A stretch of 40,765 nucleotides of DNA from the IMG/VR virus record IMGVR_UViG_3300049032_000046, positions 1-40,765 of that record. The stretch is one strand, 5' to 3'. The position numbers and the translations under genes were made by a program. Positions 5,118 to 36,756 of this stretch are shown here, piece after piece. The first letter of the stretch is position 1; every line of letters starts with the position of its first letter. Under the pieces are notes generated by a model that saw only the letters and a program-made list of their open reading frames with translations, did no database searches and was not told the origin of the DNA. Source of the DNA: a virus.

Positions 5118-5512
5118 TGGGCCGGTCTCTGGCAGTATTGGAGGGGCAGGAACCTCTGGGGCGAGATGGTGTCGCATTGGCATCTTCTCCTGTGCTTCTC
5201 GAAAAGGTTAACGAGCCCGACGCCACGCCGTCATGGGGGGAAGTTTCCCCCCGTGAACAAGGGTGGAACGCCGCGGCATTCCGCAGGTCCTTTCCGGAGA
5301 TCTGGGGCCAATACCTCAAGGACCGATACAAGACGGCCTACGCAGTCCGGAAGGCTTTCCCCGGCATTGACGGCAAGACCGCCCGCGACTGGATCGGCGG
5401 CAAGCGAGATCCTCATGCCAGCTTTGTCATCGCCGAGGTGACGCGGGAGGAAACTGCGCTTCAGGCCCTCTCGCCTTTCATTTCCCCAAATCCCCAGCGG
5501 AGGACAGCATGA
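5117..5512 (+). CDS. Early protein with HTH-like core, CII-position regulator candidate
   Basis: A 131-residue product; its ATG overlaps the previous stop (TGATG). The first 40 residues look disordered. The core (about residues 50-115) contains AYAVRKAFPGIDGKTARDWI, which reads like a DNA-binding helix-turn-helix with a recognition helix at KTARDWIGGKRDP. By gene order it is where lambda CII or a YdaS-like regulator would be. No exact family recognised. Confidence 0.65.
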   Translation: MGRSLAVLEGQEPLGRDGVALASSPVLLEKVNEPDATPSWGEVSPREQGWNAAAFRRSFPEIWGQYLKDRYKTAYAVRKAFPGIDGKTARDWIGGKRDPHASFVIAEVTREETALQALSPFISPNPQRRTA

Positions 5513-5715
5513 CCCGCAACAATGAACCGGCCCGCCGTTCTTTTGTTCCCGGCGATCCCGACACGGCTTTTCTGCGCGATGATCTGCCGAAGCCGGCGCA
5601 GTGGATAGCGCGGCAGGTGCAGGAAGACGAGCCGGATTTCTTCGGCCGTGCCGTCGTCTTCGCCGCAGTCGTCATCATTGCCCTGCTGGGCCTTGCAGCG
5701 TGGGCTTCGCAATGA
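5509..5715 (+). CDS. Small tail-anchored membrane protein
   Basis: A 68-residue product with a good ribosome-binding site (GGAGGA) before the ATG at 5509. The soluble acidic N-terminal part (FVPGDPDTAFLRDDLPKPAQW) is followed by one C-terminal transmembrane helix (AVVFAAVVIIALLGLAAWA). Unknown function; it is placed between early regulators and is expressed from the operator-controlled promoter. Confidence 0.65.
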   Translation: MTRNNEPARRSFVPGDPDTAFLRDDLPKPAQWIARQVQEDEPDFFGRAVVFAAVVIIALLGLAAWASQ

Positions 5716-6737
5716 GCCTCGAAGACCTCTCCCTCGATGACCTGCGCCGCCTGAGCGAACGGCTGGCTTCCATCGTCAGCGCCGGCGCCCAACTGGAGAG
5801 TGCGGGCCTTGAGCCGCGCTTCGACCTGACGCCAGCGCACCCGATGCGGATCACGCTCGGGGCCGTCATGCCACCCGCCACGCGGCCCGACTTCCCGACG
5901 TGGCTCATGGCCCAACCGAAATCCACCGAGGCCGCGCCACCCTCCCTGGTGCCAGAGCCGGTGGACGCGCCCTTGGTCCGTGGGGAAGCGGCCGAGGGCG
6001 CACCTATTTCCGCCGAGCCGAGCAGATCGGCCGAGGTTGCTGCGTCCCCCGGGGCGGTGACGGTCGAGGCGCAGGCGGAAAGCGGCGGGAGGTCGGAGGC
6101 AGCACCGGCCCCCGCCGCACCTGTTCCCGGCTCTGCCAGCGCGCTGGCTGGGCAATGGCAAGCACCGATGTGGACTGCCGAGGAAGACGAACGGCTGATT
6201 GCTCTTGTCGTCGCCGGCGTCACAAAGGAAGGCTTGACCAAAGCCGCCGCGATCAGCGAGGCCGCCGTTGAGCTTGGGCGAACCAATGCCGCCGCCAAGT
6301 TCCGCTGCGACACGAAGCTGAAGGATCGCCTGAAGGCCGCGTTGGCTGAGGCTGCCCTGCTCCAAGCGCAGACCGAAACGCCCGCGATCCCCGAGGCCGC
6401 AAAGGTCGACCTCGGCCAAGGGGAGCCCGCCGTCGGGGGTAATTCTTCGGCGGCGGTTAAACCCAACGACCCGCTGATGGCTCACCTGTGCGGCATGACC
6501 GAGAAGGGCGGGTGGTCGCTCGCGCGCGATCTGGACCTGATGGAATTGTCCTGTGCTGGTTTGTCGGCCGCGGACATTGCCCGGGAAATCCAGATGCCGG
6601 ACGCGGCCGTCAAACCCCGCTTCGACGCGCTCACTGGCCTGCACGACGACGAGGTGACCGGCAAGAAGGCCCGGCGCTGGTCGCGCGAGGAAGTTCTGGG
6701 GGCGCTGCTGATCATGGCCGGAAGGGTGGCTGCGTGA
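5712..6737 (+). CDS. Putative DNA-binding protein with two SANT/GcrA-like helical units
   Basis: A 341-residue product. The start at 5712 overlaps the previous stop. A coiled N-terminal helix (SLDDLRRLSERLASIV) is followed by a long Pro/Ala/Glu-rich linker (about 65-150). A Myb/SANT-like unit beginning PMWTAEEDERLIALVVAGV lies at about residue 150, and a second helical unit at about 265 (GGWSLARDLDLMELSCAGLSAADIAREI) resembles the start of GcrA-type helix-turn-helix proteins. A role as regulator or in replication is inferred from its early position. Confidence 0.65.
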   Translation: MSLEDLSLDDLRRLSERLASIVSAGAQLESAGLEPRFDLTPAHPMRITLGAVMPPATRPDFPTWLMAQPKSTEAAPPSLVPEPVDAPLVRGEAAEGAPISAEPSRSAEVAASPGAVTVEAQAESGGRSEAAPAPAAPVPGSASALAGQWQAPMWTAEEDERLIALVVAGVTKEGLTKAAAISEAAVELGRTNAAAKFRCDTKLKDRLKAALAEAALLQAQTETPAIPEAAKVDLGQGEPAVGGNSSAAVKPNDPLMAHLCGMTEKGGWSLARDLDLMELSCAGLSAADIAREIQMPDAAVKPRFDALTGLHDDEVTGKKARRWSREEVLGALLIMAGRVAA

Positions 6738-6895
6738 TGGACGAGGCTCGAGAACGTCACCTGCTGAGCCAGGTCCCGACCCTTCGTTGCAAGGGCCAGA
6801 TCGAGGGCTTCCGGAAGATGCTTGCCGACCAAGGTGAGACGCCCACCGGCCCGCTGCAGGCGGCACTGCTCTCGCGGGAGAAGGCGCTGTCATGA
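6737..6895 (+). CDS. Small conserved protein, unknown
   Basis: A 52-residue product, ATG at 6737 overlapping the previous stop (TGATG). A GTG three bases upstream is an alternative start. It is basic and helical, with PTLRCKGQIEGFRKML in the middle. It overlaps the next gene by four bases, which supports its being translated. No known function. Confidence 0.55.
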   Translation: MDEARERHLLSQVPTLRCKGQIEGFRKMLADQGETPTGPLQAALLSREKALS

Positions 6896-7053
6896 CCCGC
6901 GACCCGCTCTTGGCCCTGTCGATCCGCCGCGAGGTCCTGCGGGCCGAAGCCGAGGAGCGGCGGGCTGCGCGAGACACGCAAGGCGCGGCCAAGGCGGAGG
7001 CCGAACTGCGCCGGGTGAACACAGAGATTCTGCGCGCCGGCCTTCGGCGCTGA
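6892..7053 (+). CDS. Small charged helical protein
   Basis: A 53-residue product, almost entirely an Arg/Glu/Ala-rich helix (RREVLRAEAEERRAARD). It starts by ATGA overlap with the preceding gene. Wobble positions are strongly G/C, as in its neighbours, so it is likely coding. Function unknown. Confidence 0.5.
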   Translation: MTRDPLLALSIRREVLRAEAEERRAARDTQGAAKAEAELRRVNTEILRAGLRR

Positions 7054-7076
7054 ACCAACCGAACAAGGAGGGCGCA

Positions 7077-7748
7077 ATGCCTGACGGACAGTTGACGGAC
7101 GCCCCGCGCGTTAATTTTGCATCGTACGATACACCTTCGCAGCAGACCTATCAGGGCCTGGACCGGGCTTTTGCTCACTTCAACCGCATCCTGTTCGAAA
7201 ACCGCCTGCCTGACGTCCACATGGTGGTTCACCGCAAGAGGAACGCGCGCGGCTACTTTCATCAGGAGCAGTTCAAGCACCGGGAGTCGGGCGAGCGGAT
7301 CGATGAAATCGCGCTGAACCCGGACAGCATGGGGCGCACCCTGCCGGAAGTGCTTTCGACCTTGGTGCACGAGATGGTGCACCTCTGGCAGCAGCACGAG
7401 GGCAAGCCGGGAAAGGGTGGCCACAACAAGGAGTGGGCGGCGAAGATGGATTCCATCGGCCTGACGCCCACCAGCACCGGCGCCCCTGGCGGAAAGCGCA
7501 CGGGCAGGAACATGACACACATGATCGATGCGGGCGGGCCTTTTGACGTGGCCTGCTCAGAGCTTCTGGTGGCCGGCTTCGATCTGCCCTGGTTCACTGA
7601 AGCACCGCCGCCCAAGCCAAAGAAGAAGGACCTGTCGAAGGTCAAGCACACCTGCCCGGACTGTGATGCGAACGCATGGGGCAAAATTGGGATCAACCTG
7701 GTCTGTGGCTCTTGTAACGCAACGATGTTCGCAGACGAGGCGGCCTGA
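7077..7748 (+). CDS. SprT-like zinc metalloprotease
   Basis: A 223-residue product. AAGGAGG precedes the ATG at 7077. The SprT-like domain covers about residues 25-130, with zinc ligands in HEMVH (98-102) and a third histidine in GGHNKEW (H116). A C-terminal zinc ribbon (CPDC near 193 and CGSC near 211) is typical of SprT proteins. The eukaryotic relative Spartan cleaves proteins crosslinked to DNA. In this replication/repair cluster, beside a nuclease and a methyltransferase-like protein, it may clear proteins from phage DNA or act on host DNA-bound proteins; that is inference. Confidence 0.88.
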   Translation: MPDGQLTDAPRVNFASYDTPSQQTYQGLDRAFAHFNRILFENRLPDVHMVVHRKRNARGYFHQEQFKHRESGERIDEIALNPDSMGRTLPEVLSTLVHEMVHLWQQHEGKPGKGGHNKEWAAKMDSIGLTPTSTGAPGGKRTGRNMTHMIDAGGPFDVACSELLVAGFDLPWFTEAPPPKPKKKDLSKVKHTCPDCDANAWGKIGINLVCGSCNATMFADEAA

Positions 7749-21998: not shown

Positions 21999-22345
21999 CG
22001 CTCTGGGCGCAGCAACTCGGCTGGCTCCACGCCAAGGCCGGGAAGGACGAGAAGACCCGGCTTGAGCGTCACGCCGAAGCCGGGATCACCCCTCAAATGC
22101 CGGAAGTCGGGCCGCTGGCCTACCTCGTGGAAGCCTTCCACGCCGTCCGCTTCGCGCGGCACGGCTTCGAGGGCCTGACCCCGCAGACGTGGGTGGAAAT
22201 CGACGCATTCGCCCGGGCGACCGGACGGATCACGACCGGGTGGGAAGCGCAGGCGCTCTTCGACATGAGTTGGGCCTACGTGACCGAGAACCAGAAGGCC
22301 GCCGATGCACTCCGCATCGCGCCGATGGAGAGACCGAATGGCTGA
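21983..22345 (+). CDS. Tail assembly chaperone, frameshift extension (gpT-like)
   Basis: After the slip the reading continues RTRALTLWAQQLGWLHAKAG and ends at 22345. It adds about 120 residues to 148 upstream ones, for a 268-residue fusion starting at 21540. The extension is helical, with LAYLVEAFHAVRFARHGFEG and MSWAYVTENQKAADALRIAP, features common in the long forms that recruit the tape measure during tail assembly. An ATG at 22097 would allow only a truncated independent protein; the continuous upstream open frame and the slippery site favour fusion. Confidence 0.8.
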   Translation, partial: RTRALTLWAQQLGWLHAKAGKDEKTRLERHAEAGITPQMPEVGPLAYLVEAFHAVRFARHGFEGLTPQTWVEIDAFARATGRITTGWEAQALFDMSWAYVTENQKAADALRIAPMERPNG

Positions 22346-24317
22346 CTTCGCGACACTGGTCCTCGGCGCGGAAACCGCCGGGCTGAAGAAGGCCGAGCCT
22401 GCCCTCGATGCGGTCATTGCGAAGGCGGGCAAGGCCGACGCAGCGGTCAAGAAGATGGGCGCGGCGACCCGGCAGATGGGCACGGACGCGCAGGCCGGGG
22501 CCACGCAGGCCAAGGCGGCGCTGGATGGGATCGAGGTCGAGGCCAAAGCGGCTGAGGCGTCTCTGCGCCAAGCCGCAACCGGGCTCGACAGTATGCAGCG
22601 GGCGGCGGTCGGAGCGGGGCAAGCCAGCGGGGCCGCGGCGGGCCAGGTGGGCAACCTGACGGCCCAGGTCTTTGACATCAGCATGATGCTGCAGGCCGGG
22701 CAGAACCCCTTTGCGCTGATGCTTCAGCAAGGCTCGCAGGTCGCGCAGGTCCTCGGCCCGATGGGTGCCACCGGCGCGCTGCAGGCGTTCAAGGGCGTGT
22801 TCGCGCAGCTGGTCAGCCCGGTGAACCTACTTACCATGGGCGTCATTGGCCTGACCGCGGCCATTGTGCCGATGGTCGCCAGCCTTTTCGACGGGGCCGA
22901 GGCCGCCGAGGCGCAAAAGAAGGCGATGGAAGCCGAACAGGCGGTCATCGACGGGCTGATTGCCAAGATCGAAGAGCTGACCATCGCGCGTCAAATGCTG
23001 CAAAGCGGCGCATCCAGCGCCGAGGAGCAGGCGGGCCTTAACGAGATCAACGCTCTTGTCGCGGAACGGGTCGCGCTGGAAGCGGAACTCGCCAATCAGG
23101 TCCGCTTCGTCGGCACCGCCCAAGGCGCGAACCAGAGGGCCGAATTGGCGGCACGGCAAGAGGCGGTGCAGGCCCGCATCGCTGAAATCGACGCGATGAT
23201 CCAGACGATCAACAAGGAAGAGGAGCGTATTCAGGCGATCGAGCGCGCAAAGGCCATCGCCGAACTCTTCCAGACCGTGATGGACGAGGCCGCGCGCACC
23301 GACCTCAACAGCCCTTGGAATCGCGTCCTCGGCGCCATTCAGAACGCCATCAACAAAGCCAACATTTACCGCGCGACCATTGCCAACGCGCAGGCGGCCT
23401 TCGACCGCGGGAACAAGGTCTACGGCGGACGCGGCGGTGACCCGCGCCAGTTCGACGGCTCCGGGCCGCAGGTGTTCAATCCCTCGGCCGATGTGGTCAA
23501 GGCTGCGGACGCCATGCTGAACCCCTCCTCCGGTGGAGGTGGCGGTGGAGGCGGTGGCGGCCGGAGCGAGTCTGCAGCCGCGGCCGAGAAGGAAGCCGAG
23601 GCGATCCAGAAGGTCGTTGACAAGCTGAAGTCGGAGATCGAGCAGGTCGGCATGAACGATGAGGCCCGGCGGCTTCATCAGGAACTGCAGCGGGCGGGTG
23701 TCGACATCTACTCGAAGGAAGGCCAGGAGATTGCCGCCCTCGTCGAGAAGCTCACCGAACTGGAGGCCAAGCAGAAGCTGGTTTCCGAGACCATGCGCGG
23801 GATCGAAAGCGCAGCGCAGGGCTTCTTTGTCGGCGTCCTCTCCGGGGCCAAGGATCTGGAATCGGCCATTGGCGACCTCCTCCGGCAGCTTGGCAACCTG
23901 TTCCTCAACCAAGCCTTCAAGATGCTTTGGGAAGGCACGGGCGGCGGCGGTGGGCTTGGCGGCTTCATCGCGGGCCTCTTCGACGCCGGTGGACATATCC
24001 CGGCTGGTCAGGTCGGCGTCGTGGCTGAGAAGCGCCCGGAACTGGTCAACGGCAAGCTTGTGACCCGGCCGACACTGGTGTCGGGCCCGGCCGACGTGAC
24101 CGGCGGCGCAGCCACGGCGAAGATGATGGGCGTCCCCATGCCGCAGACCGCCAGCCCGCGGCGCGCTTCCATGCAGATGGCGGCCGCCCCGCGCGTGACA
24201 GTGACCCCGCCGCCGGTGGTTGTGCTGGACGACCCCCGGAAGATCGACGCGTGGCAGCGCAGCCCTGAGGGCGAGCGCACGGCGGCGTGGCAGCGGCGGC
24301 GGATGGGCAATGGCTGA
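22338..24317 (+). CDS. Tape-measure protein
   Basis: A 659-residue product started at the ATG at 22338 (GGAGAG upstream; 8-base overlap with the chaperone extension). The N-terminal third is alanine-rich coiled coil. A hydrophobic stretch (LLTMGVIGLTAAIVPMVASL, about 164-184) may help pass DNA across the inner membrane. A second coiled coil (about 225-310), a run of ten glycines (about 398-408) and another coiled coil precede a C-terminal part with FFVGVLSGAKDLESAIGDLL and FIAGLFDAGGHIPAGQVGVV, typical of tape-measure C-termini. By the usual scale of about 0.15 nm per residue the tail would be near 100 nm. Confidence 0.92.
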   Translation: MADFATLVLGAETAGLKKAEPALDAVIAKAGKADAAVKKMGAATRQMGTDAQAGATQAKAALDGIEVEAKAAEASLRQAATGLDSMQRAAVGAGQASGAAAGQVGNLTAQVFDISMMLQAGQNPFALMLQQGSQVAQVLGPMGATGALQAFKGVFAQLVSPVNLLTMGVIGLTAAIVPMVASLFDGAEAAEAQKKAMEAEQAVIDGLIAKIEELTIARQMLQSGASSAEEQAGLNEINALVAERVALEAELANQVRFVGTAQGANQRAELAARQEAVQARIAEIDAMIQTINKEEERIQAIERAKAIAELFQTVMDEAARTDLNSPWNRVLGAIQNAINKANIYRATIANAQAAFDRGNKVYGGRGGDPRQFDGSGPQVFNPSADVVKAADAMLNPSSGGGGGGGGGGRSESAAAAEKEAEAIQKVVDKLKSEIEQVGMNDEARRLHQELQRAGVDIYSKEGQEIAALVEKLTELEAKQKLVSETMRGIESAAQGFFVGVLSGAKDLESAIGDLLRQLGNLFLNQAFKMLWEGTGGGGGLGGFIAGLFDAGGHIPAGQVGVVAEKRPELVNGKLVTRPTLVSGPADVTGGAATAKMMGVPMPQTASPRRASMQMAAAPRVTVTPPPVVVLDDPRKIDAWQRSPEGERTAAWQRRRMGNG

Positions 24318-25446
24318 GGTATGGCGGTGGAAGCCGCAGGCCATCGGCGAGACGCTGGAGTTTGAAACCGACGTGCGCATGGCGCGGTCTGGCGAATGGC
24401 GGGACAGCCTGAAGGACGCCACGCAGTTCCTGGACCTGTCGCACACGCTGCTGACCACCCGCGCCGAGGCCATGATCGAGGCTGTGCGCGCGAACGCTCT
24501 GGGGCAATGGCTGGTGCCGGAGTGGCCCAACGCCACGGTGAGCACAGCGACGCTGGCAGCGGCGACCACGGTGATCCCGGTGGCGGTGCCTGCCGCCTAC
24601 CAAGTCGGGCAGGCGGTCTATATCGGCCTCGACGACTCGTCGTGGGAAGAGGGCGAGGTCGCCAGCATCGGCGCGAGCGACATCACCCTCGTGGACGGGC
24701 TGGCGGTGACCTACACCGGGACGCCCGGCCGCCCCGTGATCGTCGCGCCAATGATCCTCTGCATCGCGCCGGGCGGGATCGAGTTCCAGTCGGTCTTCCC
24801 GGTGCAGGGCCTCACCGCGCGGTTCATGGCGATCGAGCCGGTGGACCTTGCCGCCAACCCCTACCCGACCCATGCGGACCTGCCGGTGGTCACCGATGGC
24901 CGGGTGCCGTTCCAGCCGCTGCCGGGGTCGCTGAACCAGGCCTCCGACCTCTTCGCCTCCGGCTTCGGCGCTTATGCTCTACAGCAGGTGGAAACGTATA
25001 CACGCCGCCGGGGCCTCGTCAGCTGGTACGACAAGGGTCACGCGGCCCGCTGGCAGCGCCGGGGCTTCCTGCACTACCTCCGGGGCCGTGACGGGGCCTT
25101 CTGGCTGCCCACGGGGCAGAATGACTTGCCGCTGGTCTCCAGCGTGGCCTCCGGGGCCTTGAGCATCACCGTGCGGCCCTGTGCGGCCAATGCGGCGATG
25201 ATCGGGCGGCGGATCACCATCCGCGAGGGCGCGAACGTCGTCACGCGCCAGGTGGCCGGGGCAAGCACGGTCGGGGCCAACCAGGCGCTGTCCATCGACG
25301 CGCCCGGGGTCGCCTTCACCACGGCGGCCATCGTCAGCCTGACGGTCAAGAGCCGTCTCGACGCCGACCAGATTGAACTCGGCTACCAGTTCGCCGCGGG
25401 CGGGCTGGCCGCCACCTGCAGCGCCCCCGTGATCGAGGTCCCCTGA
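24310..25446 (+). CDS. Distal tail protein candidate
   Basis: A 378-residue product started at the ATG at 24310, overlapping the tape-measure stop. It begins MAEVWRWKPQAIGETLEFET and contains beta-rich segments (TTVIPVAVPAAYQVGQAVYI, FQSVFPVQGLTARFMAIEPV). A cluster near residues 225-280 (YTRRRGLVSWYDKGHAARWQ, FWLPTGQNDLPLVSSV) and an immunoglobulin-like C-terminus follow. By order between tape measure and hub it fits the distal tail (Dit) ring on which the tail tip is built. The family match is by context more than sequence. Confidence 0.7.
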   Translation: MAEVWRWKPQAIGETLEFETDVRMARSGEWRDSLKDATQFLDLSHTLLTTRAEAMIEAVRANALGQWLVPEWPNATVSTATLAAATTVIPVAVPAAYQVGQAVYIGLDDSSWEEGEVASIGASDITLVDGLAVTYTGTPGRPVIVAPMILCIAPGGIEFQSVFPVQGLTARFMAIEPVDLAANPYPTHADLPVVTDGRVPFQPLPGSLNQASDLFASGFGAYALQQVETYTRRRGLVSWYDKGHAARWQRRGFLHYLRGRDGAFWLPTGQNDLPLVSSVASGALSITVRPCAANAAMIGRRITIREGANVVTRQVAGASTVGANQALSIDAPGVAFTTAAIVSLTVKSRLDADQIELGYQFAAGGLAATCSAPVIEVP

Positions 25447-26297
25447 TGGGTTTCTCCGACTACCTCGGCCAGATCTTCGGCAAGCGCGCCGCGTGGCTCT
25501 ACCGCATTGTCATTCCTGGCGTGGCGACCTACCATATCACGAGCCGCGGCCGGGACTACACGTCCAGCTCCGGCAAGCCTGACGCGACCTTCGCCTCCAG
25601 CACCACCTGGACCTCCACGGCAATCCTGAACGGCGGCGTGACGCAGACGACGCAAGCCGAGCGCGCCGAGGTCAAGATCAGCCTGCCCACCACCGGCGCC
25701 ATCGCCCAAGCCATCCTTGCCTACGACGGCCAAGGCGACATCGCGGTCACCATCTGGCAGACCTTCGACGGCGACCCGGACGAGGAGTACGCGCTGAAGT
25801 TCACGGGCCGGGTGGTCAGCATTCAGCCGGGAATCCTGGCGGTGGCGCTGATCTGCGAGGAAGGCTTCACCGCCATGTCGCGGTCGAGCGTGGCCCAGGT
25901 CATGCAGCGCCTCTGCCGCCATGCGCACTACTTCACCACCGACGACGGCGGCGGCTGCCGGCTGGACGTGGACGATTGGAAGCAGGCGGTCAGCATCACG
26001 GCGGTGTCGGGCCGGGTGGTCACGGTGCCCGCAGCCGCGCTGCAGCCCGATGGAACCTTCACCGCGGGAATCCTCTTCTGGGGCGGCAGCGAGTACTTCG
26101 TCCAGAGCCATGAGGGCAGCGCACTGACGCTGGAAGCGGTCCCGGTGGGCTTGGCCGCGGCGGTACCCGAGGATGCCGATCTGGCCCCGGGCTGTAACCT
26201 GACGCCGACCAACTGCGCCGCGTTCAGCAACATCGCAAACTTCGGGGGCTTCTGGTTCATGACCGAGACCCCGTTCGACGGGAGGGCGCTTGGGTAA
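25446..26297 (+). CDS. Tail hub protein, BR0599/DUF2163-like
   Basis: A 283-residue product, TGATGG overlap with the upstream gene. The C-terminus LAPGCNLTPTNCAAFSNIAN then FGGFWFMTETPF is the signature of the phage BR0599/DUF2163 hub family, which includes gp13 of the Rhodobacter gene transfer agent. Four cysteines (MQRLC, GGGC, APGC, PTNC) are placed as in lambda gpL-like hubs, in which they hold an iron-sulfur cluster; cluster binding here is inferred. An N-terminal beta domain (LYRIVIPGVATYHITSRGRD) forms the ring part. Confidence 0.82.
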   Translation: MGFSDYLGQIFGKRAAWLYRIVIPGVATYHITSRGRDYTSSSGKPDATFASSTTWTSTAILNGGVTQTTQAERAEVKISLPTTGAIAQAILAYDGQGDIAVTIWQTFDGDPDEEYALKFTGRVVSIQPGILAVALICEEGFTAMSRSSVAQVMQRLCRHAHYFTTDDGGGCRLDVDDWKQAVSITAVSGRVVTVPAAALQPDGTFTAGILFWGGSEYFVQSHEGSALTLEAVPVGLAAAVPEDADLAPGCNLTPTNCAAFSNIANFGGFWFMTETPFDGRALG

Positions 26298-26527: not shown

Positions 26528-26736
26528 CCCGCATCATCCACCAGGACTTCCGCCACCAGACCACGCGGATCTGCGACCGGGCGCGCGACCTCTTCTTCCG
26601 CCGCTTCGGGCTGGATTGGGAGCGGTTCAAGCGCGAGGGCATGGACGCCGACGAACTGCGGGCGCCAGGCCAGCACCTGGACCTGATCGATCGGCTGGAA
26701 GCGGTCGCCAAGGCTCGAGAGGCTGCGAATGGGTAG
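26524..26736 (+). CDS. Small conserved tail-region protein
   Basis: A 70-residue product, ATGA-coupled upstream and overlapping the next gene by 8 bases. Basic N-terminus (MTRIIHQDFRHQTTRICDRA) with RRFGLDWERFKREGMDADEL and a C-terminal helix. No membrane segment. Function unknown; strict conservation of the overlaps suggests a structural or assembly role. Confidence 0.65.
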   Translation: MTRIIHQDFRHQTTRICDRARDLFFRRFGLDWERFKREGMDADELRAPGQHLDLIDRLEAVAKAREAANG

Positions 26737-29557
26737 CGGCAAGAAGGCCACGATCGGGCACAACTACTACCTCGGGATGCACCTTGTCTTGGCTCGGCAG
26801 ATTGATGCCCTGCTGACCATCAAGATGGGCTCCAAGCGCCCGTGGCGCGGGATGCTGGCCTCTGGCTCGGGCGTGGTGCATCGCCCCAATTTGTTCGGCG
26901 GCACGAAGCGCGAAGGCGGCTTCAGCGGCAGGTTCGACCTGATGGACGGCAACAACGACCAGGCCATCAACGGCTACCTCGCGAATAAGCTGGGGTCGTT
27001 CGCTTCAGCTTACCGCGGCGTCGTCTCGCTGGTCTGGCGGCGGCCAAACATCGGCGCCAATAGCGCCCGCTTGCCGTCGATGGAGTTCAAGCTGGTCAAC
27101 ACGACGGGCATTCATCGCGGATGGGAGGTGGATACCGCGCTGATAGGCGCGGAGATGGGCGGTGGCGGGGCCTCCATCTTCATCGCAATGGACACATCTC
27201 TGTCTATGGCGGGCGCTCGCCTCGCCACGCAAAAGGCCGCGCTGGCGGCGTTTATTCGCGGCCTCAAGGGCACTATCAACAGCGTACGCATTGTCGCCTT
27301 CAGCGGCGTGATCAATGGCTCTATCGAGCGGTTCGACTGCACCGATGCCGATTACGAGGACATCGCGCTGTGGCTGGAGGCATACACCACACTCAGCCTG
27401 GGCGGCGACTGGGAATTGGCGGTCAACTCGGCTGCGACCTTCTTCAACGGCGACTCCTCCATCACCCGCGACCTCTTCGGGGATTCCGTCGCGGACGGCC
27501 TACTGAACCTGTCGACGCTTTTCGTCGGCGCCTCTAGAAAGGAGTCGCGCCGGAAGGTGGTCATCTTCACGTCGGATGGTGTGCCGGAAGTGGACACGGT
27601 GGCGCCGGCCGCGGCCGAGTTGGCGTCCATTTCGGGCGTGGAAGTCTTCTGCTTCAACATCGACCTCGCCGACACGACCTACACCGCGCAGCTGGACAAC
27701 ACTCCGGCGGATGGAATCCCGGTCATCGACGGAACGGACTCCGACGCTCTTCGCGTGGCCTTCGCCGGGGCTTTTCTGGCGTGGGTGGACATGAACCCGG
27801 CGCACATCATCCGCTGCTTGTGGACCGATCCCATGCGCGGCGGCATCGCGGATGAGAGCGAGATCGGCGACAGTTTCGCCGAGGCGGCCGACCTTTTCTA
27901 CGCAGAGGGCTTCGGCTTGTCTGTGCCCTTCCGCGGTGCTGACCTGGTGGATTCCGACCGGCTTGAAGTCGAGCGCCACGTCGACGCGATCAGCTATCGC
28001 AGCCGTCGCACAGGCAAGATCGAGATCAAGGCCATTCGCAACGACTATGTGCCGGCAGACCTGCCTGTGCTGGACTCGTCCATCGTGCTGGAATGGTCGG
28101 GCCTTGAGCGCGCCATGCGGAGCGAAACGCCGAACCAGTTGACGGTGATCTACACCAAGCGCTCTAACGGCGAGACCGCCAGCGTGACCCGGACCAACGT
28201 CGCCGGAGTTCGGCGCGCCGGGAGGATCATCCCCAGCGAGCCGGTCGAGTACCCCTTCTGCACGACGGCGGCCCTCGCCACGCGGCTCTGTCTGCGCGAT
28301 CTGTCGGTGCAGGACAGGCCTCTCCTTTCCGGCACATTGCGCTTGGCCTATCTGCCGCCTGAATTGGAGATCGGCGAGCCGTTCATCATCAACGAGCCTC
28401 TTCTCGGCATCAGCAACGTTGTCGTGCGGATCATGGAGTCGCAGGAAGGCGACGGCCAAGACAATTCCGTGACCGTCAGGGTCAGTGAGGACCGCTATGC
28501 GCTGCCCGCAGCGGACGCAACGGACCCGGGCGCCGAGCCCGAGCCGCCGACTGATGCCCGCGCAGAACCGTCGCCAAATCGCGTGGTGCAGGAGGCGCCC
28601 TACTACCTGATGGTGCTCGACCAGACGCAGGCCGACGTGGACGACGCGCTGGCGACCGACCCGGATATCGGTGTTCTCCTGGTCGCGGGCACCAAGCCAA
28701 CCGAAGCGCACTTCAACATCACTACGGCGGTAGACGCGGGCGCCGGCTACGAGGACGAAGGCGACGTGAACTTCGCCCGGTCGGTTCTGACGCTCTCGGC
28801 ACTGACGACCGAGGCCGACGACACGGTGGTGACGGTGGAGGCGTCGACCGACCTTTCCGGCATCACGGCAAACAGCCTGGCGCTGATCGGGTCCGAAATC
28901 GTCCGCATCGACAGCATGGCGGACAATGGGGCCAACGTGGACATCACCATCGGGCGCGGCTGCGTGGACACTGTTCCCGCGGCCCACGCCATCGGCTCGC
29001 GGATCATCTTTCTGCAGGACGCCGACCCGCTGGAGACGCAGTACGTCGCCGCTGACACGGTGGACGTGAAGCTCCTCTCCAACCTGAACGAGACCCGGTT
29101 GTCCCTCTACTCGGCGCCGGTGGACAGCGTGACCTTCGCCAGCCGAGCGATCCGGCCCTATCCCCCGGGCCAGTTCAAGATCAACGGCAGTTATGCGCAG
29201 GACCAGCTCACGGATGATGTGGTGCTGACTTGGGCGCACCGGGACCGGACGCTTCAAACCACGCTGATCCCCGAGGACCACGACGACGCCGGGATCGGGC
29301 CGGAAGCGGGGACGACCTACCGGGTGCGGGTCGATGCCCTGGACAGTGGTGGGTCGGTGCTGTCGGCCCTGGTGGATACGAACGTCGGCGGCGTCACCAC
29401 CTACGACTGGGACGACTCCACGGTCCTGCCCACTGGCACCGCACGAGTTCGCTTCCGGGTCACCTCCGTCCGCGATGGCTATGAGAGCTGGCAGAGCCCT
29501 TCCATCACCACCATCAACCTGCAGCCTCCGGGCAGCCTAACGGCCGAGGTTCTCTGA
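26729..29557 (+). CDS. Central tail-tip protein with inserted von Willebrand A domain
   Basis: A 942-residue product. The N-terminal part (1-about 135; HNYYLGMHLVLARQID, RGVVSLVWRRPNIGANSARL) and the part from about 352 (DMNPAHIIRCLWTDP) follow the layout of phage central tail/host-specificity proteins. Between them lies a vWA domain (about 140-350). Its MIDAS residues are all visible: D155-x-S157-x-S159 (AMDTSLSMAG), a TTLSLGGDW loop (220-228) and D283 in FTSDGVPE. Later parts include PPELEIGEPFIINEPLLGIS, a disordered acidic linker (about 590-610) and fibronectin-like C-terminal domains. It probably forms the tail tip; the vWA insert could bind a host surface protein through a metal ion. 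Confidence 0.82.
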   Translation: MGSGKKATIGHNYYLGMHLVLARQIDALLTIKMGSKRPWRGMLASGSGVVHRPNLFGGTKREGGFSGRFDLMDGNNDQAINGYLANKLGSFASAYRGVVSLVWRRPNIGANSARLPSMEFKLVNTTGIHRGWEVDTALIGAEMGGGGASIFIAMDTSLSMAGARLATQKAALAAFIRGLKGTINSVRIVAFSGVINGSIERFDCTDADYEDIALWLEAYTTLSLGGDWELAVNSAATFFNGDSSITRDLFGDSVADGLLNLSTLFVGASRKESRRKVVIFTSDGVPEVDTVAPAAAELASISGVEVFCFNIDLADTTYTAQLDNTPADGIPVIDGTDSDALRVAFAGAFLAWVDMNPAHIIRCLWTDPMRGGIADESEIGDSFAEAADLFYAEGFGLSVPFRGADLVDSDRLEVERHVDAISYRSRRTGKIEIKAIRNDYVPADLPVLDSSIVLEWSGLERAMRSETPNQLTVIYTKRSNGETASVTRTNVAGVRRAGRIIPSEPVEYPFCTTAALATRLCLRDLSVQDRPLLSGTLRLAYLPPELEIGEPFIINEPLLGISNVVVRIMESQEGDGQDNSVTVRVSEDRYALPAADATDPGAEPEPPTDARAEPSPNRVVQEAPYYLMVLDQTQADVDDALATDPDIGVLLVAGTKPTEAHFNITTAVDAGAGYEDEGDVNFARSVLTLSALTTEADDTVVTVEASTDLSGITANSLALIGSEIVRIDSMADNGANVDITIGRGCVDTVPAAHAIGSRIIFLQDADPLETQYVAADTVDVKLLSNLNETRLSLYSAPVDSVTFASRAIRPYPPGQFKINGSYAQDQLTDDVVLTWAHRDRTLQTTLIPEDHDDAGIGPEAGTTYRVRVDALDSGGSVLSALVDTNVGGVTTYDWDDSTVLPTGTARVRFRVTSVRDGYESWQSPSITTINLQPPGSLTAEVL

Positions 29558-31218
29558 TGCCGACCGTCCGCCTCACCTGGACCGACCCCAACTCTGGCGC
29601 CGCCCAGGAGGACGAGGTGCGCGTCTATCGCAGCACCGCCGCTTTCGACGCAGGGAGCTTGCCCGCGGTTCTCGCCACCCTGCCGGCAGATACCTTGACC
29701 TACGACGACACGACCGCGATCGACGGTTTGTCCTACTGGTATGCGGTCGCCTATGAAAAGAGTGGGCGACTGGCCATCAGCTTCACCGGCGAAATCGAGG
29801 TGGGTGCGGGCTACGTGCCGGTCGCGGAACCCTCCCCGAACGCGGCGAAGCTGGCCGAATATTCCAGCGCGACGGAGTACACCCACGACTGGGCCAACCT
29901 GACCGGCTGGACTGTGTCAAACCAGCAGGTTTCCAGCAACCGGCTTTACAGCAACGGCAGCGGGGCAAACCCTAGCGCGGTCTACCGGCCGTTCGCGGTA
30001 GCGGCGGGGGAGAGCGCCAGGCTGACCTGCGAAATCGTCCGGGTCACAGGTGTGGCCCGGGCCGTTTATGTCGGCTTCGAAGCGGTCGGCGGCGCCATTC
30101 TCGCCAGCCTGCCGAACTTCTGCGGAATCGGGGTGAACGGTTCTGACGACTTCGAAGCCTTCCTCGGAGCGAACCTGACGGGCGTCACGACCGGCGCGAC
30201 CAACTTGCGGACCCTGACGGGATCCGGGACCTACACCGTCACTGTCACGGCCGACCCGACCTACATTTCGCTCTGCATCCGCAAGGCTGACAGCAGCGAA
30301 GAGGCGGTCATGATCATCCCGCGGTCGTCGCTGCCGGGTGGCGGCGCCATCGCTGGTATCACGATCTGGAACACCGACACTCGCGGTCTGACCGGCAGCT
30401 ACGTGAAGGGGATCGGGGTCAGAAAGTCGCTGACGCCCTTTGTGACCAAAACCGTGACGGGTTCGGTGATCGAGGGGACCACGGGTCAGGTCATCCACCG
30501 CGGGCCTTCAGGTGACCGCTGGCGCATCCACCTTCCGAAGGCGATGGACGGCACGGTGGCGCATCCGATCTGCCTTTTCACCCACCAAGCCACCACCGGC
30601 AACCGCCATTCGGTCTGGGAAGAAACCCGCGCAAGGCCCGTCCTGGAGGCTTTGGATGCGGCCGGCTACATCGTGGTCAGCGCCGACGACCAGGGCGACC
30701 GATGGGGCAACCAGGCGTCGATCAACAACTATCTGGCTGCGGTTCAGTGGGTGCGGGACAACTTCTACGCTGGCCCGCTGGTGCTTTGGGCGCCTTCGAT
30801 GGGTGGCACGCCGGCTTGGAACATTGTGCTGAGACGCGAGGCGCATGTGCGCGCCATCGCCGCGATTTGCCCAGTCTGCGACATCCCAGACATGTATTCC
30901 GGTTCATTCGTCAGCACTCTGAACGCGGCTTACGGGGTCAGCAATCTTGCCGGCCTGGAGGCGGCCCTTGCAGCGAGCGGCGGCTACAACCCGCTTGACG
31001 GCAACATGGTGGAGTTCACGGACAAGGGCGTGAAGTTCTGGGTCGGCACCGGAACGAGCGACTCCACGGTTCCAGAGGCTAACCACGCGGTGCCCATGCG
31101 CGCCGCCATGCTGCCCTACGCGGCAGAGTGCTCCATCGTGGAAATCGGGAGTGGCCACCTGGCGACCTCGCAGTACGACCCGACCGGAATCGTCGCGCTG
31201 TTCGACACCTACACCTAA
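29557..31218 (+). CDS. Tail fibre with fibronectin III, jelly-roll-like and alpha/beta-hydrolase domains
   Basis: A 553-residue product; its ATG overlaps the previous stop. Residues 1-85 look like a fibronectin III domain (VRLTWTDPNSGAAQEDEVRV). Residues about 110-290 form a beta-sandwich of carbohydrate-binding type. Residues about 300-553 are an alpha/beta-hydrolase with nucleophile elbow WAPSMGG (Ser414), an acidic residue in GTSDSTVP (Asp502) and His534 in GSGHLATS; the first elbow position is Ala rather than Gly. It probably de-esterifies or cleaves a surface polysaccharide during adsorption. The substrate is unknown. Confidence 0.82.
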   Translation: MPTVRLTWTDPNSGAAQEDEVRVYRSTAAFDAGSLPAVLATLPADTLTYDDTTAIDGLSYWYAVAYEKSGRLAISFTGEIEVGAGYVPVAEPSPNAAKLAEYSSATEYTHDWANLTGWTVSNQQVSSNRLYSNGSGANPSAVYRPFAVAAGESARLTCEIVRVTGVARAVYVGFEAVGGAILASLPNFCGIGVNGSDDFEAFLGANLTGVTTGATNLRTLTGSGTYTVTVTADPTYISLCIRKADSSEEAVMIIPRSSLPGGGAIAGITIWNTDTRGLTGSYVKGIGVRKSLTPFVTKTVTGSVIEGTTGQVIHRGPSGDRWRIHLPKAMDGTVAHPICLFTHQATTGNRHSVWEETRARPVLEALDAAGYIVVSADDQGDRWGNQASINNYLAAVQWVRDNFYAGPLVLWAPSMGGTPAWNIVLRREAHVRAIAAICPVCDIPDMYSGSFVSTLNAAYGVSNLAGLEAALAASGGYNPLDGNMVEFTDKGVKFWVGTGTSDSTVPEANHAVPMRAAMLPYAAECSIVEIGSGHLATSQYDPTGIVALFDTYT

Positions 31219-33969: not shown

Positions 33970-34725
33970 TTAAGCTGCCCGATGGCGCGGCAGAAGCTTT
34001 GGTAGGTGAGGAAGTGCTGCCGGATCGCGCGTGTTGAAGTAGCGCTCCGAGTGCTCTGGAATCCAAACGTCATCGACGAATTCGATAAAGAGAGGCAGCA
34101 AGCTGCGCGGATACTGTCGCGCTTCACCTTCCCACTCTGGGGTTTTGTGGACGTACATCCGATAGTCTTTGCTGACTGACGGATGATGTTCGGCGAGCCA
34201 TTTGGCAAACAAGCTTCCCACGCTTGTGTCTGGGCGCAATTGCTTTCCGTCAGGCGCGCGGTCCGCCATCCGGTGCCCCACCATTTCCAGACGGCCCCAT
34301 AGACGTGTCACCAGCTCCGAGATCACCGAGAAATAGCCGGCGTCGACTCGGTCCCAGTTCTCATTAAAGCGACGAATGAAGTCGGGAACCTTCCCGCCGT
34401 ATCCACCCGTCTTGCGGATCGACGGCAGTACTTCCGCGGTCACCCAACGCCGGAAGGCCTTGGCTTTGTCTTTTCGGCTCCGGAGAATTAAGGAGTACAG
34501 TCCGCTTTCGCTGATGATGGTAACGCTCTGGCCACCTCCAAGGGTGTGCATAGTAAGCACATCCTTTTCGTCATCATCCAAAATGCGTGCTGCTGACGCC
34601 GTGTGCGAGATCTCCAACTTCCTGCACACGTCCAGCAGAACAAACCACGGGTCCCCGTTCCGCTCAACTACCCGGAACTCGTCGTTATCTCCATCTTCGT
34701 GGAAAACTTGCATCGTCATCTGCAT
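33970..34725 (-). CDS. Bro-N antirepressor, probably frameshifted near its 3' end
   Basis: A 251-residue product; AGGAGG lies eight bases before the ATG at 34725. The Bro-N domain covers about residues 8-108 (FRVVERNGDPWFVLLDVCRK, SESGLYSLILRSRKDKAKAF, RRWVTAEVLPSIRKTG). Such proteins bind DNA or repressors and often act as antirepressors. The C-terminal domain is a phage-specific helical region. At (CG)3, 34026-34031, another frame continues as NTRAIRQHFLTYQSFCRAIG and ends at 33939 with G/C-rich wobble bases, while the current tail has A/T-rich ones. Loss of one CG unit would explain this, so the original gene probably spanned 33939-34725. Confidence 0.8.
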   Translation of the reverse strand: MQMTMQVFHEDGDNDEFRVVERNGDPWFVLLDVCRKLEISHTASAARILDDDEKDVLTMHTLGGGQSVTIISESGLYSLILRSRKDKAKAFRRWVTAEVLPSIRKTGGYGGKVPDFIRRFNENWDRVDAGYFSVISELVTRLWGRLEMVGHRMADRAPDGKQLRPDTSVGSLFAKWLAEHHPSVSKDYRMYVHKTPEWEGEARQYPRSLLPLFIEFVDDVWIPEHSERYFNTRDPAALPHLPKLLPRHRAA

Positions 34726-35649: not shown

Positions 35650-36756
35650 CTATTTCGCGCGCGTTGCAACGGGATCGGCGGGCGTTGCACTTTGGCGTTC
35701 TCGAATCGTGCCCATGACCGCTTTCTTGCGGTCCGCCGCCTTGGTGTAATGGGCCACCTCGACCAAGGTTTCATGGCCCGTCCAAGCCCCAATCTGGTGG
35801 GCAGTAGCGCCGGATTCGGCCAAGGCGACGGCGCGCGACTTCCGAAGTCCATGCGCCGTGCACCCTGTCAGACCGGCCGCCCGGGCATCGGCGCTCACGT
35901 CGTTGGAGATGGCTTTCTCCGATCGGCGTCCGCCGTGCACCGTGGGCAGGAAGGTCATGTGTCCGGCCAAGCAGATCAGCGCGTCGTGCATCATCTGTCG
36001 GTCTGCGATCATTCCGGCTGCATAGTCTGGCACTGGCGCGGTCCAGGGGACGTAGGCCAGGCCGCCCGTCTTCTGCTGACGGAACACCAGGACGCCGTCC
36101 CGATCAATCATCCCCGGCCCGATCCGGACCGCGTCGCTTACTCGGCAACCGGTCCAGTGAAGCAGCTCCATCCTGGCGCGCGCGACAGTGCCCACCGGCC
36201 ATCTGGCGCGAAAGGCCGCGATCTCGTCGGCTGTCCACGGACGGTGGCCTTCGGTCGCCGGCGCCTTCGGTGGACTGACGGCCGCCGCGGGGTCCGTGAT
36301 CCGGTACTCTGTCCAGCGAACCTGCTTGCAGATCATCCGCCATGCCTTGAGGCGCGCCCGGGCGACATGGGGGGTAAGTGTGGCGAGATCTCGCTCGATG
36401 TGACCAGGGCGAAGATCCTTGACCATCGCCCCGCTCCCCGCCTTGCGGATGGCCTCCAGGTGGGGACGGAGGTGCTTCCGGTAGCCCAAACTGGCAGAGG
36501 TGTAGTCGGCTGACTGAAGGGCCACGACGACGGCCGCGCCGATCGTTCCGGGACCTGGCTTCGCGCCCGCCTTGGCAGCCGTAGACCGAGCGGCTGCGTA
36601 GGCTGTCAGGAAAGCGGGATCATCGTGCGGCAGGTCCGGCAGCCGGGTCAGCGGGGCGCCCTTGGCGCGGTAATACCACCGCGTCGTGCCGTCGCGATTC
36701 CGGATCGGCATGAGCCCGGTGAGTTTCACTGTGCCTTGCCCCACACTGCGTCGCAC
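35650..36756 (-). CDS. int: Tyrosine-recombinase integrase
   Basis: A 368-residue product from a GTG at 36756, chosen because GGGGAGG stands seven bases upstream. The catalytic set is complete: Arg205 (GCRVSDAVR), Lys229 (RQQKTGG), His302-x-x-Arg305 (AHGLRKS), His328 (WTGHETL) and Tyr337 (AHYTKAAD). The N-terminal part holds an arm/core-binding region. It inserts phage DNA into the host chromosome and, with the excisionase-like protein encoded just upstream (31-base overlap), would excise it. Confidence 0.95.
   Translation of the reverse strand: MRRSVGQGTVKLTGLMPIRNRDGTTRWYYRAKGAPLTRLPDLPHDDPAFLTAYAAARSTAAKAGAKPGPGTIGAAVVVALQSADYTSASLGYRKHLRPHLEAIRKAGSGAMVKDLRPGHIERDLATLTPHVARARLKAWRMICKQVRWTEYRITDPAAAVSPPKAPATEGHRPWTADEIAAFRARWPVGTVARARMELLHWTGCRVSDAVRIGPGMIDRDGVLVFRQQKTGGLAYVPWTAPVPDYAAGMIADRQMMHDALICLAGHMTFLPTVHGGRRSEKAISNDVSADARAAGLTGCTAHGLRKSRAVALAESGATAHQIGAWTGHETLVEVAHYTKAADRKKAVMGTIRERQSATPADPVATRAK

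Follow-up and report, generated by a model that had tools for sequence, protein, structure and literature searches.

Binding domains inserted into baseplate proteins are established in phages of Gram-positive bacteria, where the proteins that carry them are known as evolved Dit and Tal (PMC7291167). These inserts are carbohydrate-binding modules; they sit in loops, in Tal (the equivalent of the hub considered here) also in those of its N-terminal structural domain, and occur in only part of the phage group concerned. The hub proteins lambda gpJ and T5 pb3 likewise carry inserted domains in the vicinity of HDII (PMC10721106, PMC11101478), but these are FNIII-like or plug domains, they occupy sites other than the one considered here and have been given structural or gating roles, and none is a von Willebrand A (vWA) domain. 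The baseplate of phage JBD30 (8rk3; PMC11445458) has a hub homologous to the one analyzed below. There, the gp47/gp48 lateral fibres bind type IV pili; of the distal tail protein, domain I (residues 2-74) wraps these fibres and domain II (75-174) points outward, and fibre attachment also involves the upper baseplate protein (PMC11445458).

We analyzed a 40,765-base stretch of viral DNA from IMG/VR (hereafter the window) that encodes a JBD30-type baseplate hub, homologous in sequence and fold over the whole hub (Table 1). A preliminary description, made from the sequence alone, had called this product a tail-tip protein, which is correct, the more exact term being baseplate hub. Indeed, phmmer against the PDB retrieved JBD30 gp53 (8rk3) at 5.3e-82 and the Chi minor tail protein (8vjh) at 4.9e-58. 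Both alignments skip from query residue ~102 to 355, the parts aligned to gp53 being residues 5-102 and 355-927. The protein also matches PHROG 1101 (tail protein) at 2e-195. An AlphaFold2 model of the hub (44 sequences, mean pLDDT 83.9, pTM 0.53) matched 8rk3_b with a Z of 36.1 over 700 residues, with an overall rmsd of 30 and shifted domains, and matched Chi with a Z of 34. The tape measure, distal tail, upper baseplate and hub genes follow one another as in JBD30, that is, in the order gp46-gp53 minus gp47/gp48. Unlike JBD30, whose hub has no domain in the slot described below, the window has neither the gp47/gp48 fibres nor a long distal tail protein: the distal tail gene adjoins the tape measure gene directly, leaving no space for fibre genes, and no fibre (TFP) HMM match was obtained across the whole window. 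The gene following the hub gene encodes a candidate receptor-binding protein or esterase. Its hydrolase contains a PSMGG motif, possibly preceded by an FN3-like N-terminus; at the tail tip, the protein may act as an esterase that modifies surfaces.

Table 1. Baseplate features of the window (L numbers, here and below, are labels of our survey)
Feature	Coordinates	Strand	Basis
Tape measure protein	22305..24317	+	TMP_2 1.9e-11
Distal tail protein, short form (core alone), 408 aa	24220..25446	+	PHROG 1082, positions 508-895 only
Upper baseplate protein (JBD30 gp50 / lambda gpL type), 283 aa, without vWA	25446..26297	+	Phage_BR0599, PHROG 778
Baseplate hub protein, 942 aa, insert-bearing	26729..29557	+	phmmer, PHROG, structural match
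Insertion slot, residues 133-354 (W132 / M355-NPAH), filled by vWA	27125..27790	+	Alignment with hubs lacking the segment; 133-cluster survey
vWA domain proper, residues ~138-351	27140..27781	+	HMM 138-344, AlphaFold2 model, matches to solved vWAs
MIDAS motif 1, D155-x-S157-x-S159, intact	27191..27205	+	Alignment
MIDAS motif 2 region, G225-G-D-W228, canonical Thr absent	27401..27412	+	Alignment
Extra loop, residues 242-270	27452..27538	+	pLDDT under 50; in window and L002, gap in other aligned vWAs
MIDAS motif 3, S-D283-G, intact	27572..27580	+	Alignment
Virion protein with C-terminal alpha/beta hydrolase	29557..31218	+	Role inferred

The part of the hub skipped in these alignments contains a genuine vWA domain with a Rossmann-like fold, which bears out the vWA fold initially proposed for residues ~140-350. 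A genome search gave a Pfam VWA_2 match at 27179-27457 (4.9e-7, above the cut-off), and the whole hub protein gave weak but significant matches to Pfam VWA and VWA_2 (1e-4). An HMM built from slot vWAs, of which the window sequence is one of the seeds, covers hub residues 138-344 at 2.7e-62. In the AlphaFold2 model, the segment forms a separate domain of alternating strands and helices, with pLDDT mostly between 85 and 93. This part of the model (residues ~146-351) matched many solved vWA and I-domains, among them CMG2, VWF A2, integrin I domains, TRAP and the vWFA domain of an Aeromonas large adhesion protein, with a Z of ~20 and an rmsd of 2.2-2.5 A over ~170 residues (VIA-align). The vWA of the Aeromonas hydrophila protein (9das; Z 19.8, 19% identity) showed the highest identity among the listed vWA matches; it has the same fold but belongs to a bacterial cell-surface adhesin, outside virus particles.

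Alignment with homologues established that the segment is an insert and not an integral part of the hub. The limits first given for it coincide exactly with a slot bounded by W132 and M355-NPAH, and the impression that the flanks read as one protein proved right, since homologues without the segment align on both sides. The slot flanks, WYPEKA.I and DMNPAHIIRECLTD, are almost constant among aligned hubs. Between them, Ab18, JG012, D3112 and the Chi-type phage iEPS5 have 10-30 residues, and a vWA is found in MW2, PaMx28, Bhz59, ZS04, R6L, Elanor, V45iii, QH3, Mallos and BAPIC_0004, whereas SCUT-S3, Lucius and Eidolon have unrelated content. Contigs of viruses, phages and bacteria were surveyed and provided 319 hubs, which form 133 clusters when grouped at 85% identity; the slot was empty in 59 clusters, filled with a vWA in 50 and occupied by another insert in 24; the hubs were picked by similarity to a few queries, and Xylella phage Sano lies outside this sample. 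Slot class was uniform within each of the first 129 clusters (90% identity), and a single mixed-class cluster, L315, was present in the second set (85% identity). Two long non-vWA inserts match Laminin_G_3 (2.7e-12 and, below the cut-off, 1.6e-4), and the remainder have weak below-cut-off matches to glycosidase sugar-binding domains, or none. As judged from these matches, some alternative inserts resemble ConA-type lectin or sugar-binding domains, as would suit binding to a surface, although the argument is thin outside the lectin-like cases. Note that the slot of L236 holds an insert of ~375 residues with weak similarity to sortilin/Vps10-type propellers, and that Rhodobacteraceae-type hubs (L029 9530-12658 and relatives) have, besides the vWA, a second, ~110-residue insert in the N-terminal hub domain, around position 40 of the protein.

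Trees built on the hub flanks indicate that the slot content is exchanged frequently. With a three-state label (empty, vWA or other), at least 17 changes are needed on one hub tree and at least 24 on the other; for the vWA label, well-supported branches force at least 11 or at least 14 changes, respectively. Sister hubs that are 61-76% identical in the long C-flank have a vWA on one side and an unrelated insert or nothing on the other, the slot being wholly different in Elanor/L235 (C-flank 63%), ZS04/L176 (61%) and L100/L025 (76%). In addition, in 91-100% of the pairs of vWA hubs with a flank identity above 0.4, similarity is lower in the domain than in the flanks; this faster divergence may alternatively be caused by relaxed constraint. 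In our preferred reading, which we hold to be probable but by no means secure, the siphophage baseplate hub has a fixed slot, and the segment found there serves as an exchangeable module for recognition of the host. The preliminary description took this for an unusual route to host recognition. The principle is not unusual: as in evolved Dit and Tal, a core baseplate protein carries an extra domain that is absent from some relatives (PMC7291167). Unlike those cases, the insert is a vWA, a fold of the protein-binding type, at a site of its own; vWA hubs belong mainly to phages of Proteobacteria, and the fold is found in upper baseplate and distal tail proteins as well.

An N-terminal vWA is present in the upper baseplate protein of MW2-type phages, PaMx28, Mallos, V45iii, QH3, BAPIC_0004 and several contigs (family HMM 1e-36 to 1e-49). 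Bordetella phages MW2, CN1, CN2 and FP1 (GenBank) thus resemble the window in having a hub vWA at the same slot and differ from it in having this second vWA; the MIDAS of MW2 is complete. The assignment for the MW2 type rests on the family HMM, the MIDAS motifs and a model of the L083 upper baseplate protein (Z ~20 to vWA domains), the MW2 protein giving no Pfam VWA match at 0.05. In Rhodobacter phages and Roseobacter-group prophages, it is the distal tail protein that contains a vWA, at residues ~180-360 (family HMM 1e-27 to 1e-46); that of L100 matches Pfam VWA_2 over the cut-off, and some carriers have an empty hub slot. On the vWA tree, the upper-baseplate and distal labels each need just 2-3 changes; the domain has therefore moved among genes a few times. 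In the window, the hub copy is the sole vWA found among the baseplate proteins.

vWA domains are frequent mediators of protein-protein assembly. The hub vWA could thus dock a further protein of the virion, be it a lateral fibre, the candidate receptor-binding protein encoded downstream or an upper-baseplate vWA, and so organise the baseplate with no host contact. Such a role would account for the occurrence of vWAs in adjacent baseplate proteins within one phage, the upper-baseplate vWA being always accompanied by a hub vWA in the sampled cases, and for one downstream protein family being commoner with vWA hubs (20 with vWA, 7 with another insert, 5 with none). However, this family, the largest of the vWA-linked ones, also accompanies other hubs, and in the window, as in most phages with a vWA hub, the upper baseplate protein has no vWA. 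Moreover, the slot of close relatives contains unrelated folds or nothing, which is unexpected for a conserved docking site. We consider this explanation possible but unlikely.

The content of the slot is also related to the fibre genes. Among 110 assessable clusters, gp47/gp48 fibre genes accompany 46 of the 54 empty-slot hubs and none of the 56 filled-slot hubs. Five of the eight empty-slot hubs without fibres have a distal-tail vWA, and the others are iEPS5, L172 and L178; Chi-type phages have neither insert nor fibres. L172 and L178, which lack both, have a short distal tail protein. The Fisher p-value for this association (4.6e-23) is uncorrected for ancestry and comes from a sample selected by similarity to the queries; being confounded by ancestry, it was dropped as proof of mutual exclusion. 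Each trait changes only 4-5 times on the tree, which leaves the independent-pairs test with 4-5 pairs and no power. The distal tail protein varies in parallel, with a median length of 560 aa with an empty slot versus 388 aa with an insert, the latter being about the length of the distal tail core without domains I and II.

Pairs of related phages show the same contrast within a genus. SCUT-S3 and DLP1 are 98% identical in polymerase and clamp and 80% in the tape measure protein, versus mostly 23-28% in the distal tail protein, the upper baseplate protein and the main part of the hub, with fibre genes in DLP1 only. Likewise, PaMx28 and PaMx74 are 77% identical in the tape measure protein and 79% in the endolysin, versus 31-57% in the baseplate proteins. 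QH3 and SCUT-S3 have a cassette in common (55-64%), but their slots are filled differently, and the upper-baseplate vWA also sets them apart. As judged from these identities, otherwise near-identical phages have swapped the whole baseplate cassette. AXL1, DLP2 and others depend on type IV pili by experiment, according to PMC9206674. In AXL1, AXL3, DLP1 and DLP2, an empty slot goes together with fibres, and the same combination of fibres and no insert was found in every type-IV-pilus-dependent phage examined (JBD30 being represented by its relative D3112). This distribution fits an insert cassette that would serve a different attachment route.

vWA domains with a MIDAS bind proteins through a divalent metal. 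All five MIDAS residues (D-x-S-x-S, T, D) are kept in 57 of the 59 slot vWAs, and the family as a whole supports, at the level of its conserved residues, a metal-dependent site. Such family-wide conservation also suggests one definite type of ligand. It therefore argues against the domain being a general sticking module, for instance for surface polymers or mucus-like material, that would raise the encounter rate without deciding host range. The lectin-like alternative inserts could be explained in this way, and evolved Dits are reported to bind the host of the main receptor-binding protein at lower affinity (PMC7291167), but the replacement of pilus-binding fibres by insert cassettes also speaks against it, and we regard it as distinctly improbable. 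The window does not conform to the family pattern. The preliminary description credited it with all MIDAS elements; D155-T-S157-L-S159 and D283 are indeed kept, but motif 2 reads L-G-G-D-W versus the usual GGT[DN]F, the Thr being replaced or deleted, so that four of the five residues are present. Realigning motif 2 on T220/T221 was tried and rejected: the D-W pair corresponds to the D-F of the other domains and the Thr is missing either way. Among the 59 slot vWAs, this Thr is absent only in the window and in L003, a distant relative that has lost every MIDAS residue; L002, a close relative, also lacks it and reads FGGDW. Because the absent Thr coordinates the metal, metal dependence of the window vWA is doubtful, and since L003 has no MIDAS residue at all, metal-dependent binding would not be essential everywhere. 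We give least credence to the idea that these losses mark a relic decaying, with no binding role, after loss of its ligand, as the window domain is intact and confidently folded in the model, keeps the other four MIDAS residues and is 91% identical to the L002 segment, close to the 89% of the whole protein. The earlier reading of the domain as a metal-dependent adhesin for receptor choice thus stands in part: host choice is the role best supported by the frequent exchange, fast divergence, lectin-like alternatives and replacement of the fibre cassette, whereas a complete MIDAS in the window does not hold.

If the segment is an exchangeable host-recognition module, the following picture can be proposed. 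The slot would lie at or near the junction of the N-terminal (HDII-insertion) domain of the hub and HDII, an assignment that we infer, and three copies of the module, probably directed outward, would surround the hub trimer. In most members, a vWA with a complete MIDAS would bind a host-surface protein via a divalent metal ion and so control host range; in the others, the slot holds unrelated domains, some of them resembling ConA lectins or sugar-binding domains, or is empty, mostly in the presence of the gp47/gp48 fibres. Phages exchange a cassette made of the fibres, the long distal tail protein and a plain hub for one made of the short distal tail protein and an insert hub, with or without the upper-baseplate vWA. 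The metal step is the weakest part of this mechanism for the window, whose vWA, having lost the MIDAS Thr, may rely on a metal site that is weakened or altered, or may bind independently of metal. In lambda, the HDII-insertion and HDII domains are reported to rotate at tail opening. By analogy with integrin I domains, one could imagine that vWAs at this moving joint undergo a MIDAS-linked change on ligand binding that both anchors the phage and helps to trigger tail opening, the distal and upper vWAs forming further sensor rings; this is a highly speculative extension with little chance of being right.

The use of the vWA fold in a host-binding role in the baseplate, and its spread over three baseplate proteins, appear to be new. 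In GenBank, the MW2 hub gene already bears the annotation 'von Willebrand factor type A', with no function given. In the open-access literature (PMC), we found no description of a vWA in a siphophage hub, phage vWAs being described there with different functions (CobT, MoxR partners, T4-like accessory genes), nor of the vWA slot, its alternatives, the occurrence in three proteins or the exclusion of fibres; no receptor was found there for any vWA-hub phage, Mallos/Elanor and R6L included. Should the proposed role be correct, phages of many Proteobacteria would recognise their hosts by an exchangeable integrin-like domain of the hub, a site outside the usual mapping of receptor-binding proteins to terminal fibres and spikes. 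The slot would then also provide a sequence-level predictor of pilus-fibre versus hub-module use among siphophages of this group, for which DLP1/SCUT-S3/QH3 and PaMx74/PaMx28 offer natural within-genus contrasts.

Three further genes of the window, all on the minus strand, deserve mention. A 680-aa ORF at 5481-7520 has no Pfam, PHROG or PADLOC match. The product of 33973-34725 resembles BRO-N antirepressors (Pfam 2.9e-22), and PADLOC finds a match to its BstA model in the C-terminal part (1.5e-8), which may reflect a shared antirepressor domain rather than defence. Finally, 35653-36756 encodes a tyrosine integrase (Phage_integrase, 1.7e-12), and the phage is therefore probably temperate.
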